Shown here in pieces: positions 7,256-29,228 of a DNA stretch of 35,130 nt. Each line of letters begins with the position of its first letter. The first letter of the stretch is position 1. Below the pieces are notes generated by a model. That model was not told the DNA's origin, ran no database searches, and saw only the letters and a list, made by a program, of their open reading frames with translations. This stretch comes from a virus, in the IMG/VR virus record IMGVR_UViG_3300031578_000179, positions 1 through 35,130 of that record; one strand, given 5' to 3'. The position numbers were made by a program, and so were the translations under genes.

Positions 7256-7834
7256 CTATATCCCGAATCCATTAATGACTTCTTTGTTTTCGTCATCATC
7301 GATCCCGATATACCTGAAAGTTACTTTAATGTTCCGGTGATTCAACAGGTTAGAGATCCTTTCAATACTGACCCCCTGCATACGCAAGTGGTAGCCAAAG
7401 GTTTTTCTAAGTGTATGACCCCCAACTTTATGCTTGATCCCAACTTCCCGGCACCACTCATTAATTAACTGATAGGCTCTTATCCTGGTAATTGCTTTAT
7501 TCTTTTTTGATTTCTCGTTAGTGAATAGGTATTGATCCAGGTTAAATATACCGGTCTTTTCCAGGAAATAGTTTAAGGCCTCTTTGATCTGCTTATTGAA
7601 GAAAACTCTCCGGGTCTTTCCGGTCTTTTGCTCTTTGATATCTAAATGATCTTTTAGATTCCCCTGGTCATCTTTGACGTTTGCAAGTTTCAGGGATAAT
7701 ATATCCCCAATCCTCAGGCCGGAGTTAATACCAAAGACAAAAAGTAAATAATCCCGGGGATTTTTCTGTCGGTATAAATTCCCCCGGATCTGCTTTATTT
7801 GATTTTCTGATCTGATCGGTTCAACGATATTCAT
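7256..7834 (-). CDS. Tyrosine recombinase, catalytic domain only
   Basis: A 192-aa phage-integrase-family protein. The catalytic residues are in order: Arg41 (GLRIGD), a Lys near 70-73, His140 and Arg143 (GGHTLRKTF), His166 (LLNHRN) and the nucleophile Tyr175 (TFRYIG). It lacks the N-terminal arm-binding and core-binding domains of lambda-type integrases, like small FimB/XerC-like proteins. I choose the ATG at 7834 because GGGGGGT lies 10 nt upstream; an earlier ATG at 7852 has no site. A promoter lies at 7877-7905. It probably integrates the phage or resolves circular multimers; which is not shown. Confidence 0.88.
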   Translation of the reverse strand: MNIVEPIRSENQIKQIRGNLYRQKNPRDYLLFVFGINSGLRIGDILSLKLANVKDDQGNLKDHLDIKEQKTGKTRRVFFNKQIKEALNYFLEKTGIFNLDQYLFTNEKSKKNKAITRIRAYQLINEWCREVGIKHKVGGHTLRKTFGYHLRMQGVSIERISNLLNHRNIKVTFRYIGIDDDENKEVINGFGI

Positions 7835-7858
7835 AAATTTTTTACCCCCCATATTTTG

Positions 7859-13669: not shown

Positions 13670-14773
13670 TTATTGAAGTTCTAAACTTGCTAATTCAACC
13701 CAAACTACTTTGTCATTCGCTACATCAATCTGAGCAAAAGAATCCCTATCTTCTCCAGCAGCTAAATTTACTCCAGTCACAGAACCTGTATAGGTTGTAT
13801 AATCTGTTGATTTAATCGGAGTTCCAATGCCTGGTGTAACGCCATACGCTGTAAAGGTAACTGTATATTCCTGAATATCAGCGCCGGTATTTTCTATATT
13901 GAAGTAAATATAAACATATTTATCGAACTCTGAATTCCAAATCGGTAAATCTACATTTACATCGCCACAATCTACCGGTACTTCCACATCTACATCAGGA
14001 GTATTTACAATTATAGTATCGGGAGTATCACAGCAATCTGGACAGTCACAATCTACATCACAGTTACAATCTCCACAATTACAACCCTTCTCAAAATGAG
14101 CAGTTATAGTTGCATTCCTATAAGGCATACTAAAATAAGTACTTGCAGCGGTTGAATAATTGAAAGTTCCAAAATTTGCTGTCCAATTAACAAACTCCCA
14201 ACCAGTTTTAGCTGTAGCTTCAATATCTACCCATTTATTAGGACAGTATTTGCCTGCTCCTGATACAGTTCCTGAATCCAATGGATCGGCTAGCATTGCT
14301 AATATATGCTTAGTACAAAAGTTAGCGGTTATCTCTACATTCTTGCAAGGCATATAAAATTTAGTGCTTGCAGAATTTGGGCTAATGATAGTTACACCAC
14401 TTGTAGAAGTTGTCCATTTAACAAATTCATAATTATCTTTAGCTGTAGCTGTAATTGTTACCATAGTATGCTCTTTATACCCGTTGGGGGCACAAACGCC
14501 ATGAATACCATCGTGAGATAAAGTTTGTGCCGAATTATTAGGATCGTCATTTAAGTCTACGCTATGGCAATCTGGACAAGGATCACCATTGCGGTCTACC
14601 TCTTTAGTCTGCCACCAATTGATATCTTGTCCCCACATGCTTTCTGGAGCATCAATTATCTTGACTACAGCACTGAGTTCTCCATTAGCTCCTGGCCAAA
14701 TAGAATCACATCCAGAAAATAACAAAGCACCTATCGCTATTAACACAGCCATTAATATTGTTAACTTTTTCAT
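13670..14773 (-). CDS. Surface lipoprotein with two InlB-B-like repeats and a Cys cluster
   Basis: A 367-aa protein. A lipobox LLFSGC gives lipidated Cys22. Residues about 100-152 and 157-228 are two repeats of the divergent InlB B-repeat/Flg_new_2 type (ITATAKDNYEFVKW; IEATAKTGWEFVNW, each ending ITA-F). Residues 231-248 are a Cys-rich linker with eight Cys in 18 residues. The C-terminal domain (about 280-367) matches the neighbouring lipoprotein. The ATG at 14773 has AGGAGGTGA upstream; the frame is open 42 codons further but that stretch forms an RNA stem. It is likely displayed on the host surface or carried as an adhesin. Metal binding by the Cys cluster is possible. Confidence 0.75.
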   Translation of the reverse strand: MKKLTILMAVLIAIGALLFSGCDSIWPGANGELSAVVKIIDAPESMWGQDINWWQTKEVDRNGDPCPDCHSVDLNDDPNNSAQTLSHDGIHGVCAPNGYKEHTMVTITATAKDNYEFVKWTTSTSGVTIISPNSASTKFYMPCKNVEITANFCTKHILAMLADPLDSGTVSGAGKYCPNKWVDIEATAKTGWEFVNWTANFGTFNYSTAASTYFSMPYRNATITAHFEKGCNCGDCNCDVDCDCPDCCDTPDTIIVNTPDVDVEVPVDCGDVNVDLPIWNSEFDKYVYIYFNIENTGADIQEYTVTFTAYGVTPGIGTPIKSTDYTTYTGSVTGVNLAAGEDRDSFAQIDVANDKVVWVELASLELQ

Positions 14774-14799
14774 TTTCTTTTTTTCACCTCCTTTCTTGT

Positions 14800-14878
14800 G
14801 GGACCTGGCCCGGTTAAAGGGTCGATAAATTACAGCGGTCCTTACTTCACCATAATCTACAATAACCGAGCCAGACCC
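14800..14878 (-). promoter_or_regulatory. Structured RNA leader upstream of the large lipoprotein gene
   Basis: On the minus-strand transcript, 14863-14878 pairs with 14800-14816 to form a long stem (13 continuous pairs including G-U, then a bulge and GGG/CCC) closing a 46-nt loop that can fold further. The stem is GC-rich in an AT-rich genome. It ends 10 nt before the ribosome binding site and has no U run, so it looks like a translational control or stability element rather than a terminator. I do not recognise a known riboswitch. Confidence 0.6.
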
Positions 14879-14892
14879 GATTTTTACTCTGC

Positions 14893-14908
14893 ATACCAAT
14901 TTTGGTAT
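14893..14908. promoter_or_regulatory. Palindrome, possible operator
   Basis: ATACCAATTTTGGTAT is a perfect 6-bp inverted repeat with a 4-bp centre, just downstream of an AGAGGTG site and ahead of the structured leader. It may be an operator or part of the leader structure. Confidence 0.35.
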
Positions 14909-26452: not shown

Positions 26453-28540
26453 TTAAACCTGTAATTCAAAACCGCTACGACCATACTGCCTAATAAATTC
26501 TAAAAAAGCCATATTTACCTGTTGTTTAATTTTAGTTATATCATTGTCATTTCTGACTACCGGATTATTTATATTGATATTAATTTCTCTTTTCCCCTGG
26601 TCATAACTTCTTTGGCCAGGTGGATTAATTTCTTCTCCTACATGCACTAATGCTAAAGTTGTTTTAGGAACAGAACGAATACCCACTTGATATTCTGGAA
26701 TATATTCTGGTTTATATCCGGTTTCTTCAATTGTTGGAACCCCAGCTAAGAAGGCTTCAGAAGCTGCCTTTTTGGCTGCTTTTTCTGCAGCTTCTCCAAC
26801 TGCATCTATTTTATTTATCAACCCGGTATATTCATCTGTTATCCCTTTAATCGCCGCTTTCTGAATGTTAGCACTTTCCTCCGTTTTCTTCGCTGTTTCA
26901 ATTAAGGCATCCTGCTGTTCTAATAATTTCTTTTTGATCAAATCAATTTCTTTTTCATACCATTCTCTTATTTTAGTTAATTCTTCTTTTTCCTTTTCAG
27001 CAGATAATCCTGCATCTTTAATTTTATCTTCTAATTGCTGTTTTCTAGTTAACAGATTTTTAGCTGCAACTTCTTCTTCCGTATGAGATAACTCATATAG
27101 TCTATCCTCTACCGGTTGCATTGCATCAGTATATTTTTTATATGCATCTTCAGCAGCTTTTGCCATTTTTTTATTGGCTTCTTCGCTTTCTTCTGCTAAT
27201 CTTGCCACCCATTCATCAAAAGATTCTATTTTATTACCGAATTCATCAAGTGCTTCACCTGCATCCTCAGTTTTTTCTCCAAGTCCGCCCATTGAATCGG
27301 CTAAATTATCTATGGTATCAGCAAATGCTCCAGCTCCGCCGCCACCGCCACCCAAATATTCTGTCAGCTTTGCAAAATTGCCTTTTATACTATCGAAGGC
27401 TTCTATAGTTATATCTCTCATCCCAAAGAGATTAGTTTTCCAGGCAGCATATAAACCACCAACAGCAATACCCACGATTGCGATAGGACCAGCAGCAGCC
27501 CCTAACCAACTATACTTTGCTCCTATTTGTGCTATAGAAGGAATGAGAGTTCCGGTGGTTACCGTTGATGTAGATATCATTTTTGCATCTAAAAGTTTTA
27601 AAGCGGTTACAACCGCCAAAATTCCAAGTTTCATTTTCATAAATGCGCCTACTGCCATTAGAATAGGTCCACCTACCAGAGCAAGACCCCCTAAAATAGC
27701 CCCTGTTTTTACGATCCATTCTGTCAATTTAGGATGTGCATCTATCCATTTATTAATATGAGTTACTACCTCTATAACCTTTCCAACCATCTTTGTGGCC
27801 ATTGGCAATAACTTTTCTCCTAATGCTACCGCTGCATCGCTTATCCTAGCTTTTAATATTCTCATTTGGTTTGCAAAGCCTTCGCTTGTTCGAGAAAAAT
27901 CACCTATAGCATTTTTAGATTGTTCTTGAGCTATTAATAATGTAGCCCAAGCTTTAGCCTGTCTATCAGTTTCAAAGGTTATCCCTTTTTGAGTTAATTC
28001 TAATACTTTTGCCTGGACATCAGTTTCCATAATGGAAATACCCAAACTTTTAACACTCTCACGTTCTCCAAGTAAGGCTTTTGTTAAAGCTGCACTTGCT
28101 CCCTCAGCTCCACCGCTATAATTCGTAAATGAAGCCAAATCCACCGCTAATTCATTAACTTTTGTAGATAAATCAAGGGCTGCTTCTCCAGTAAAACCAA
28201 AGCCAGATAATAAGTCTCCAGTATCAGATAATAATTGTTTGGCTGCTTTAGTACTTAAACCAAAATTATCAGCAAGATTTTTGGCAGTTTTTTCTGCTTC
28301 TTCTGATACATCTTGAAAAACTACTGCAAATTTACTGGCTGTTTCTTCTGCATCACTTGCCATTTTAATTAAACCTATACTTACAGCAGTTATAGCCCCA
28401 CCTACAATGGTCATAGTTTTGCCGATAGATCCAATCTTTTCTGCAAATTTAGTTAATCGATTCTCTGATTCACTCAAAGCAGATTTGAATTTTGATGCAT
28501 CGCCTATTATGCTTATTATTAATTCTTTACCCAATGCCAT
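26453..28540 (-). CDS. Tape measure protein
   Basis: A 695-aa protein, typical of tail-length rulers. It has hydrophobic segments near residues 43-61, 275-310 and 345-369 and a charged coiled coil about 430-570. Residues 397-412 are GGGGGGAGAFADTIDN, which the small plus-strand gene next door nearly copies. The length would predict a tail of roughly 100 nm by the usual ratio. GAGGT lies upstream of ATG. Tape measures enter the host envelope on DNA ejection and help form the channel, so they are common targets of superinfection exclusion. Confidence 0.85.
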   Translation of the reverse strand: MALGKELIISIIGDASKFKSALSESENRLTKFAEKIGSIGKTMTIVGGAITAVSIGLIKMASDAEETASKFAVVFQDVSEEAEKTAKNLADNFGLSTKAAKQLLSDTGDLLSGFGFTGEAALDLSTKVNELAVDLASFTNYSGGAEGASAALTKALLGERESVKSLGISIMETDVQAKVLELTQKGITFETDRQAKAWATLLIAQEQSKNAIGDFSRTSEGFANQMRILKARISDAAVALGEKLLPMATKMVGKVIEVVTHINKWIDAHPKLTEWIVKTGAILGGLALVGGPILMAVGAFMKMKLGILAVVTALKLLDAKMISTSTVTTGTLIPSIAQIGAKYSWLGAAAGPIAIVGIAVGGLYAAWKTNLFGMRDITIEAFDSIKGNFAKLTEYLGGGGGGAGAFADTIDNLADSMGGLGEKTEDAGEALDEFGNKIESFDEWVARLAEESEEANKKMAKAAEDAYKKYTDAMQPVEDRLYELSHTEEEVAAKNLLTRKQQLEDKIKDAGLSAEKEKEELTKIREWYEKEIDLIKKKLLEQQDALIETAKKTEESANIQKAAIKGITDEYTGLINKIDAVGEAAEKAAKKAASEAFLAGVPTIEETGYKPEYIPEYQVGIRSVPKTTLALVHVGEEINPPGQRSYDQGKREINININNPVVRNDNDITKIKQQVNMAFLEFIRQYGRSGFELQV

Positions 28541-28575
28541 TTAGTTACCTCGATTATTTATTTATTTTTCAATTA

Positions 28576-28584
28576 TGGTATAAT
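28576..28584 (+). promoter_or_regulatory. Extended -10 promoter of the plus-strand gene
   Basis: TG at 28576-28577, one base, then a perfect TATAAT at 28579-28584. No consensus -35 is visible, which extended -10 promoters do not need. It lies 29 bp upstream of the ATG of the 51-aa gene and directs transcription against the tail operon. Confidence 0.7.
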
Positions 28585-28613
28585 TACAATTAAAAAATAG
28601 GAGGTATATTATT

Positions 28614-28769
28614 ATGAAAAAGTATATTTTAATTTTAATTATCTCTTTCATTGGTTTTTTATTAATTAGAAGTTATATAAATTTAAAATCAGAAATACCC
28701 ACATCCCAATCTGGAGGTGGTGGTGGTGCAAGTGCTTTTTCAGAAACTATCGATAATTCAGAAAAATAA
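28614..28769 (+). CDS. Moron: 51-aa membrane peptide mimicking the tape measure
   Basis: The only well-supported gene on the plus strand. ATG at 28614 has AGGAGG (28599-28604) 9 nt upstream and an extended -10 promoter. The product has a hydrophobic helix (residues 4-18, YILILIISFIGFLLI), then RSYINLKSEIPTSQS and finally GGGGGASAFSETIDNSEK. The 15-residue block GGGGGASAFSETIDN is identical at 12 positions, with conservative changes at the other three, to residues 398-412 of the tape measure protein. It sits between the tail chaperone and the tape measure, and stops 4 bp before the frameshift extension of the chaperone. A superinfection-exclusion or anti-tape-measure role is inference; a signal peptide releasing a communication peptide is an alternative. 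Confidence 0.85.
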   Translation: MKKYILILIISFIGFLLIRSYINLKSEIPTSQSGGGGGASAFSETIDNSEK

Positions 28770-28773
28770 TCAT

Positions 28774-29228
28774 TCAATTATGTATTTTTTCAATTCCCAT
28801 TCTTTCTATTTTTGCTTTATATAAGACTTCTACATCATCTATGAAATCAACAATTTCATCTAAGGGGATTGACATTATTTCGTTATATCCATAACCAAAA
28901 CCAATGGTAAATTTCTTTATTATTTCTTGCCAATCCCAGGGGTTAAATTTTTTGATGTTATCTTTTCTATATATTTATTGAATCCAGAGAAATCATTAAT
29001 TTCTTTCCTTACTCGGTCAATGTCTCCTATATCTAATAATTCATCGAATTCATCAATAGTCATTTTAAGATCAGGATTCCCCTTTTGTAAATTATAAAGA
29101 ATAACATAAGTATCAAAATCTAAAGCATCCAATTTATTTTCCGTTCTATATCTTTCCATCTTCTTAATATCTTTATTTTTTAATCGACTTATTATATATT
29201 CTTTATCACCAATTTTTACCTTAGCCAT
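28774..29228 (-). CDS. Tail assembly chaperone gpGT-like fusion via -1 frameshift
   Basis: A -1 slip at the AAATTTA site (28944-28950) after codon 93 of the 102-aa chaperone joins it to a second open frame reading NPWDWQEIIKKF and on to KIERMGIEKIHN, ending TGA at 28774-28776. The fusion is 151 aa. This is the standard gpG/gpGT arrangement of long-tailed phages, in which the extended form recruits the tape measure and tube. Here the tape measure gene follows. Confidence 0.75.
28920..29228 (-). CDS. Tail assembly chaperone gpG-like, unshifted product
   Basis: A 102-aa helical protein (MAKVKIGDKEYIISRLKNKD, then FDTYVILYNLQKGNPDL and MTIDEFDELLDIGDIDRVRK) in the position of gpG between tail tube and tape measure. 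The ATG at 29228 has AAGGAG upstream. It ends NLTPGIGKK at the slip site. It should coat the tape measure during tail assembly and is not in mature virions in known phages. Confidence 0.75.
   Translation of the reverse strand: MAKVKIGDKEYIISRLKNKDIKKMERYRTENKLDALDFDTYVILYNLQKGNPDLKMTIDEFDELLDIGDIDRVRKEINDFSGFNKYIEKITSKNLTPGIGKK
28944..28950 (-). promoter_or_regulatory. Programmed -1 frameshift site AAATTTA
   Basis: On the minus strand A AAT TTA in the zero frame of the chaperone fits the X-XXY-YYZ slippery pattern exactly (AAT at codon 94, TTA at 95). A second candidate, A AAA AAT, overlaps it just upstream. A 56-codon open frame continues in the -1 frame. Confidence 0.75.

Follow-up and report, generated by a model that had tools for sequence, protein, structure and literature searches.

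The stretch of DNA analysed here (the window, 35,130 nucleotides, the whole of IMG/VR virus record IMGVR_UViG_3300031578_000179) carries, between two tail genes of the minus strand, a small gene at 28614..28769 on the plus strand, with its ATG at 28614 and its stop codon at 28767-28769. Its 51-aa translation product, MKKYILILIISFIGFLLIRSYINLKSEIPTSQSGGGGGASAFSETIDNSEK, has a single hydrophobic segment, strong over residues 1-26 (Kyte-Doolittle peak 2.27), and both the translation and the relatives described below are in keeping with a membrane-anchored peptide, as the initial annotation had predicted. The structure model places a helix at residues 3-26, then a disordered Gly linker and a short low-confidence helix at 39-50, the confidence being low beyond the membrane helix. 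In front of the gene, the extended -10 element TGnTATAAT (TGGTATAAT, 28576..28584, plus strand) and an AGGAGG ribosome-binding site (28599..28604, plus strand) are indeed present as had been claimed, and this ribosome-binding site, the start codon and the first codons make up a conserved leader, AGGAGGTATATTATTATGAAAAA (28599..28621, plus strand), which occurs once in the window even when 3 mismatches are allowed. No convincing -35 element was found for this promoter by a consensus scan, and no intrinsic terminator around the gene in 28450-29000; an own terminator was taken as usual, not required, for a moron, and the other two features, namely the inserted gene and its own promoter, carry the assignment. 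It is plausible that this is the only convincing plus-strand gene of the genome.

The peptide gene diverges from the gene of the tail tape measure protein (TMP) and converges with a tail chaperone gene, its position between the two having been given correctly in the initial annotation. The TMP (695 aa, 26453..28540, minus strand) matches PHROG 991 with an E-value of 2.6e-24, plus other TMP families, and contains a Gly-hinge, GGGGGAGAFADTIDN, at residues 398-412 (27305..27349, minus strand), about 25-28 residues past its last hydrophobic segment. Upstream of the TMP lies a small tail assembly chaperone-like protein with weak PHROG matches (tail assembly chaperone/XkdN-like), whose zero-frame product has 102 aa (28920..29228, minus strand) and whose -1 frame extension, KKFNPWDWQEIIKKFTIGFGYGYNEIMSIPLDEIVDFIDDVEVLYKAKIERMGIEKIHN (28774..28953, minus strand), has a slippery AAAAAAT at 28947-28953 and ends 4 nt from the stop of the moron. 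Both the extension (KKFNPWDWQEI...) and the heptamer, together with its frame, are conserved in the related loci L003, L004, L019, and L038, and by these sequence features they constitute a programmed frameshift of the G/GT type, as in other siphophages. The phage of the window is probably temperate, because an integrase is encoded at 7256-7852.

The slot in related phages

Exact matches to the leader were found in 11 viral contigs, all of them, to the extent that the contigs allow this to be seen, between chaperone and TMP, and wherever a contig spans both neighbours, the match opens a gene that diverges from the TMP and converges with the chaperone. A scan based on the chaperone, whose homologues adjoining the same slot are 77-86% identical to that of the window, added four further occupied loci (L038, L040, L041, and L042) and six empty ones (L043-L048). 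When contigs with the same cargo sequence are collapsed, the occupied loci number 14 including the window. The small opposite-strand gene that the initial annotation had proposed to look for in related phages therefore does recur, at 13 further loci with the same place and orientation, but what it encodes there is mostly unrelated exported cargo. The gene is also an extra one between genes that are adjacent in relatives, as expected of a moron, given that in seven related loci (L008 and L043-L048) the chaperone and the TMP adjoin each other with no recognisable gene between them.

The other mark of a moron, a promoter of its own, is likewise present as judged from the sequence, with an extended -10 and a strong ribosome-binding site conserved among the loci. 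Of the 14 aligned loci, 11 have TGnTATAAT ahead of the slot gene; the promoter is a different one in L009 and L017, and none is recognisable in L040, the leader being kept by most. The conservation of the leader is biased in ten loci, where the leader itself was the search criterion; of the loci recovered with the chaperone, three (L038, L041, and L042) have a few differences from the leader and L040 has more. In bacterial genomes, a slightly degenerate form of the leader gave 6 matches, all starting unrelated genes, and no host was found thereby. A leader-like site in another virus (L035, at 12204, plus strand) opens the gene of an unusual secreted protein that consists of YDKSGNKTGSYK-like repeats in tandem, but as a match to the leader it is probably due to chance.

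The cargo of the slot falls into several types. Type A, the peptide of the window, is shared with L002/L004/L005 and L019; type B, in L003, L017/L027, L040, and L042, is a lipoprotein of ~129 aa with an FxLYD domain; type C, in L009, L023-L025, and L038, has ~183-200 aa, with a signal peptide, a Pro/Glu-rich stalk and an FxLYD domain; and type D, in L020 and L041, is another lipoprotein, of ~135 aa. The exported FxLYD cargo is thus either lipid-anchored or stalked (L003 4540-4926, minus strand; L025 1108-1656, plus strand; L038 6472-7026, minus strand; and relatives), and with the NCBIfam model NF038353 (FxLYD; curated cut-off 23) one member of each type was scored, both passing, at 30.3 bits for type B and 26.8 bits for type C. 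The structure model of type B has a pLDDT >95 in the domain, which is all beta, and a fold search with the FxLYD cargo returned generic beta-sandwich matches only (best Foldseek E 3.6e-4), while tblastn with L003 as query found no FxLYD cargo in named phages.

The exchange of cargo is clearest between close relatives. The TMPs of the window (type A) and of L003 (type B) are 78% identical, and L019 (type A) and L038 (type C) have chaperones 77% and 75% identical to that of the window together with TMP N-termini that are much alike; since close relatives carry different cargo, the cargo has been exchanged independently of its neighbours. The slot is, on the sequence evidence, an exchangeable moron site for exported proteins with at least four cargo types, which mostly share one promoter and leader. 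Types A and D both start with MKK (MKKYIL in L020) and go on with hydrophobic runs that are alike, and the type D signal, MKKYILISIILLFCILLVGC, runs on into a lipobox; because its start and hydrophobic run resemble this lipoprotein signal, the tail of the type A peptide probably lies outside the cytoplasm.

Conservation of the peptide and its resemblance to the tape measure protein

A close relative of the peptide, 92% identical and in the same place, is encoded in IMG/VR by contig 3300031673_000703 (L002/L004), and a second contig (L005/L022, sample 3300031578) has the same peptide as this one. Between the peptide genes of the window and of 3300031673_000703 there are 11 synonymous and 4 non-synonymous nucleotide changes, and therefore the reading frame is under purifying selection, as seen in the sequences of these two phages. 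A more distant type A relative, with about 70% identity, is found in L019 (contig 3300031772_000950, 1192-1377, plus strand), where the membrane helix is kept and the end reads ...SGGGGRTSAFFETK. The L019 peptide has an additional segment, GDGGGFSHGVISDAT, ahead of the Gly run, and the length of the type A tail thus varies, SGGGGxxSAFxET being kept. Searches with the peptide returned no record of a named phage at E<=10, no Pfam, NCBIfam or PADLOC match, only an E 0.34 match on the signal part in PHROGs, and no sequence match to known exclusion proteins or families.

The initial annotation had drawn attention to a likeness between the end of the peptide and the adjacent TMP, and this likeness is real: the block GGGGGASAFSETIDN (codons 34-48, 28713..28757, plus strand) is identical at 12/15 positions to TMP residues 398-412, and among 100,000 shuffles of the tail in which the Gly run was kept, none reaches 12 and one reaches 11. 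The next best match of the block to other ORFs of the window (minus strand) does not exceed 8/15, and the controls, that is, unrelated slot cargoes against their own TMPs and HK97 gp15 against its TMP, give 6-7/15, with gp15 itself at 7/15. Chance or a pure Gly-run effect in the window is accordingly rejected by the shuffles. BLASTP with composition adjustment gives the peptide and the TMP an E-value of 0.06-0.2, which is weak because this adjustment discounts the Gly run. At the DNA level, the two blocks agree at 32/45 nt, and randomly chosen synonymous codons would be expected to give 32.7; thus, there has been no recent DNA copying, a recent duplication of TMP DNA is rejected, and the earlier remark that the codons differ too much for a fresh duplication was right.

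In contrast, the further claim that the block is conserved as a copy of the phage's own TMP did not hold up. In 3300031673_000703 the peptide keeps SAFSETIDN, but the adjoining TMP reads GGGGGGAGAFFEEGITPPG, without TIDN: it is nearly identical to the window TMP shortly ahead of and through LGGGGGGAGAF and then switches to FEEGITPPG. The peptide of this relative consequently matches its own TMP at 8/15 positions (shuffle P = 0.013) and the TMP of the window at 11/15 (P 5e-5), so that the co-variation of the block with the own TMP, which had been suggested as a check, is mostly contradicted, in a comparison made up of two peptide/TMP pairs; the L019 contig stops within the TMP gene, just before the hinge, and a search for the TMP hinge of this phage matched only its own incomplete contig. 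Hinges similar to that of the window TMP occur in L003, L004, L007, and L009, and those of L003 and L009 (GGGGTVEAFAEDID and GGGGALGAFGDEAK) adjoin FxLYD cargo and not a type A peptide. Given the loss of TIDN from the relative's TMP and the presence of hinge-bearing TMPs beside FxLYD cargo, the full match of the peptide to self is not maintained, and the proposal that it is kept as a mimic of its own TMP is weakened by these sequence comparisons.

What the peptides and the hinges share more widely is a core of the form GGGGxxxAFx[DE], found in all three peptides and in at least most of the hinge-bearing TMPs (window, L003, L004, L007, and L009), where the three peptides represent about one lineage and the five TMPs about another. 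Such a core (Gly run, spacer, AF, acidic residue) arises in 0.2-0.5% of shuffled tails. A slightly stricter form of it, scanned at the DNA level in 2.9 million viral contigs, gave 22 stretches, three of which are these peptides; the others lie in 19 other contigs, mostly in Gly-rich proteins, and the core alone is therefore weak evidence. The suspicion that the block is just a generic Gly-rich sequence gains some ground from the strict core and is contradicted for the full match, which beats the shuffles. The distance from the last hydrophobic segment to the hinge is 23-37 residues in the TMPs, and that from the helix to the Gly run is 8 residues in the peptide.

The TMPs of L004 and of the window, nearly identical shortly ahead of and through GGGGGGAGAF and unrelated over a stretch beyond it (residue ~406), have what appears from the alignment to be a recombination joint within the block, at the Gly hinge; this suggests that Gly hinges may be module borders of TMPs.

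Superinfection exclusion and other possible roles

The closest known counterpart of the peptide gene is in HK97, whose record has gp15, of 62 aa and labelled 'moron product', in the interval that separates the frameshifted tail protein from the TMP. In the literature, gp15 is described as a superinfection-exclusion protein from which phages escape by exchanging tail tube/TMP genes, and escape by changes in the TMP or tail genes is described for exclusion proteins of this kind (PMC10883804). Both genes encode a small membrane protein, occupy the same chaperone/TMP interval and are morons of temperate phages, whereas gp15 lies on the strand of the tail genes with its own terminator and lacks the TMP resemblance (7/15 against 12/15), the gene of the window being on the opposite strand. 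No homology of the peptide to gp15 was detected, since no phage record was returned at E<=10 from a collection that includes HK97, and the gp15 sequence differs. A moron at the chaperone/TMP junction was already known, but a limited literature search turned up no slot on the opposite strand in which four or more exported cargoes share one leader.

Other systems also act on the TMP. Ltp of the Streptococcus phage TP-J34 is an exported lipoprotein, a membrane-anchored prophage moron that acts externally on TMPs (PMC3952083). Ltp of TP-J34 and its relatives are comparable to the lipoproteins carried in the slot, although the repeat domains of Ltp are said to bind the C-terminal region of the TMP by charge, whereas the FxLYD cargo is a beta domain and the peptide has no domain. 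The ltp gene is not known to lie at the chaperone/TMP junction. According to recent work, TMPs contact inner-membrane proteins during entry, and a lambda-like TMP region at 300-400 has been linked to the use of ManYZ (PMC13190303). SNIPE, like the mechanism considered here, is a membrane-bound defence at TMP-mediated DNA entry, but it is a large nuclease with a TMP-binding domain and not a moron peptide (PMC13190303).

We prefer, with about even confidence, to see the function of the peptide in superinfection exclusion that takes effect when DNA enters, because this is an exported, exchangeable gene with its own promoter between chaperone and TMP, as is HK97 gp15, and because Ltp acts on TMPs. 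The moron would be a cassette that a temperate phage transcribes independently, on the opposite strand between the frameshifted chaperone and the TMP, and the prophage would make the peptide from this promoter of its own. Its N-terminal helix would then hold the peptide in the cytoplasmic membrane, the short Gly-linked tail lying outside the cytoplasm, and the peptide would alter the envelope of the lysogen in such a way that other siphophages can no longer bring in their DNA by means of the TMP, as happens with HK97 gp15; the likeness of the tail to the post-membrane hinge of the TMP may aid its action at this step. Exclusion had already been suggested in the initial annotation, and as a best functional guess for a membrane moron beside the TMP it would stand, without the copy of the 'self' TMP that had been attached to it.

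Proteins that prophages export may also benefit the host in ways unrelated to phage. The peptide gene might accordingly be a lysogenic conversion gene for the host envelope (adhesion, stress, surface change), unconnected with incoming phages, a role that the diversity of the exported cargo, including FxLYD, a domain that NCBI applies to cellular proteins, and the lack of any match to defence models would suit, but the position beside the TMP in the interval of HK97 gp15 and the small size of the peptide, which could hardly accommodate a domain for catalysis or binding, make it rather unlikely. The peptide could instead be a TMP decoy that imitates the post-membrane part of an incoming TMP (hydrophobic helix, linker, Gly run, AFx(E/D) helix) and either vies with it for a partner in the envelope or disrupts the assembly of the TMP in the membrane, the target of the peptide being the hinge TMPs of other phages and not necessarily its own. 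The block match that no shuffle equals, the core common to the peptides and the hinges, their parallel layout behind a hydrophobic segment and the 11/15 match of the related peptide to the window TMP all speak for such a decoy, which we nevertheless consider improbable, given that the relative's own TMP has lost the TIDN that its peptide kept, that unrelated cargo sits beside the hinge-bearing TMPs of L003 and L009, that the stricter core recurs in unrelated Gly-rich viral proteins, that HK97 gp15 has no such match, and that the peptides and the TMPs each amount to about one lineage. Mimicry of the hinge type, not of 'self', is what the sequences would leave as a minority reading, and it seems just as doubtful, if anything slightly more so, that the peptide, tethered to the membrane, mimics the Gly-hinge that follows the membrane segments of siphophage TMPs and excludes by imitating and not by binding, its targets being those TMPs in which AF and an acidic residue come after a Gly run.

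A late action on the TMP or chaperone, of the own phage or of others, would make the peptide an assembly modulator comparable to Tab of JBD26, which works in the cytoplasm. Tab is likewise a small prophage moron that targets the TMP, but it blocks tail and virion assembly within the cell, its gene lies between terminase genes, and no membrane anchor is described for it there (PMC10884400). The place of the peptide gene between chaperone and TMP would fit such a modulator, but its hydrophobic anchor and the lipoprotein signals of the alternative cargoes suggest a location outside the cytoplasm, away from the site of tail assembly, and its promoter opposes the late operon, so that we regard this role as very unlikely. 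Least probable of all, and hardly to be expected, is a secreted signalling pre-peptide of the arbitrium kind: the product is short, looks exported and has its own promoter, but no receptor-like regulator was seen among the window proteins scanned, the alternates in the slot are proteins of at least 129 aa and not peptides, and the membrane helix belongs to the conserved part.

The slot is of interest as a hot spot in uncharacterised temperate phages, where exported proteins are swapped behind a single conserved promoter and leader next to the TMP gene, whose product drives DNA entry, and as a source of candidate superinfection-exclusion proteins (the membrane peptide, two FxLYD architectures and another lipoprotein), each cargo having related phages without it as controls. 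If the hinge likeness matters, it would also mark a TMP segment with a role at the membrane while DNA enters. Elsewhere in the window, at 13670-14899 on the minus strand, a 409-aa protein has a divergent InlB B-repeat (Flg_new_2) match with an E-value of 2.1e-29, and it is possibly a second surface-type protein of this phage.
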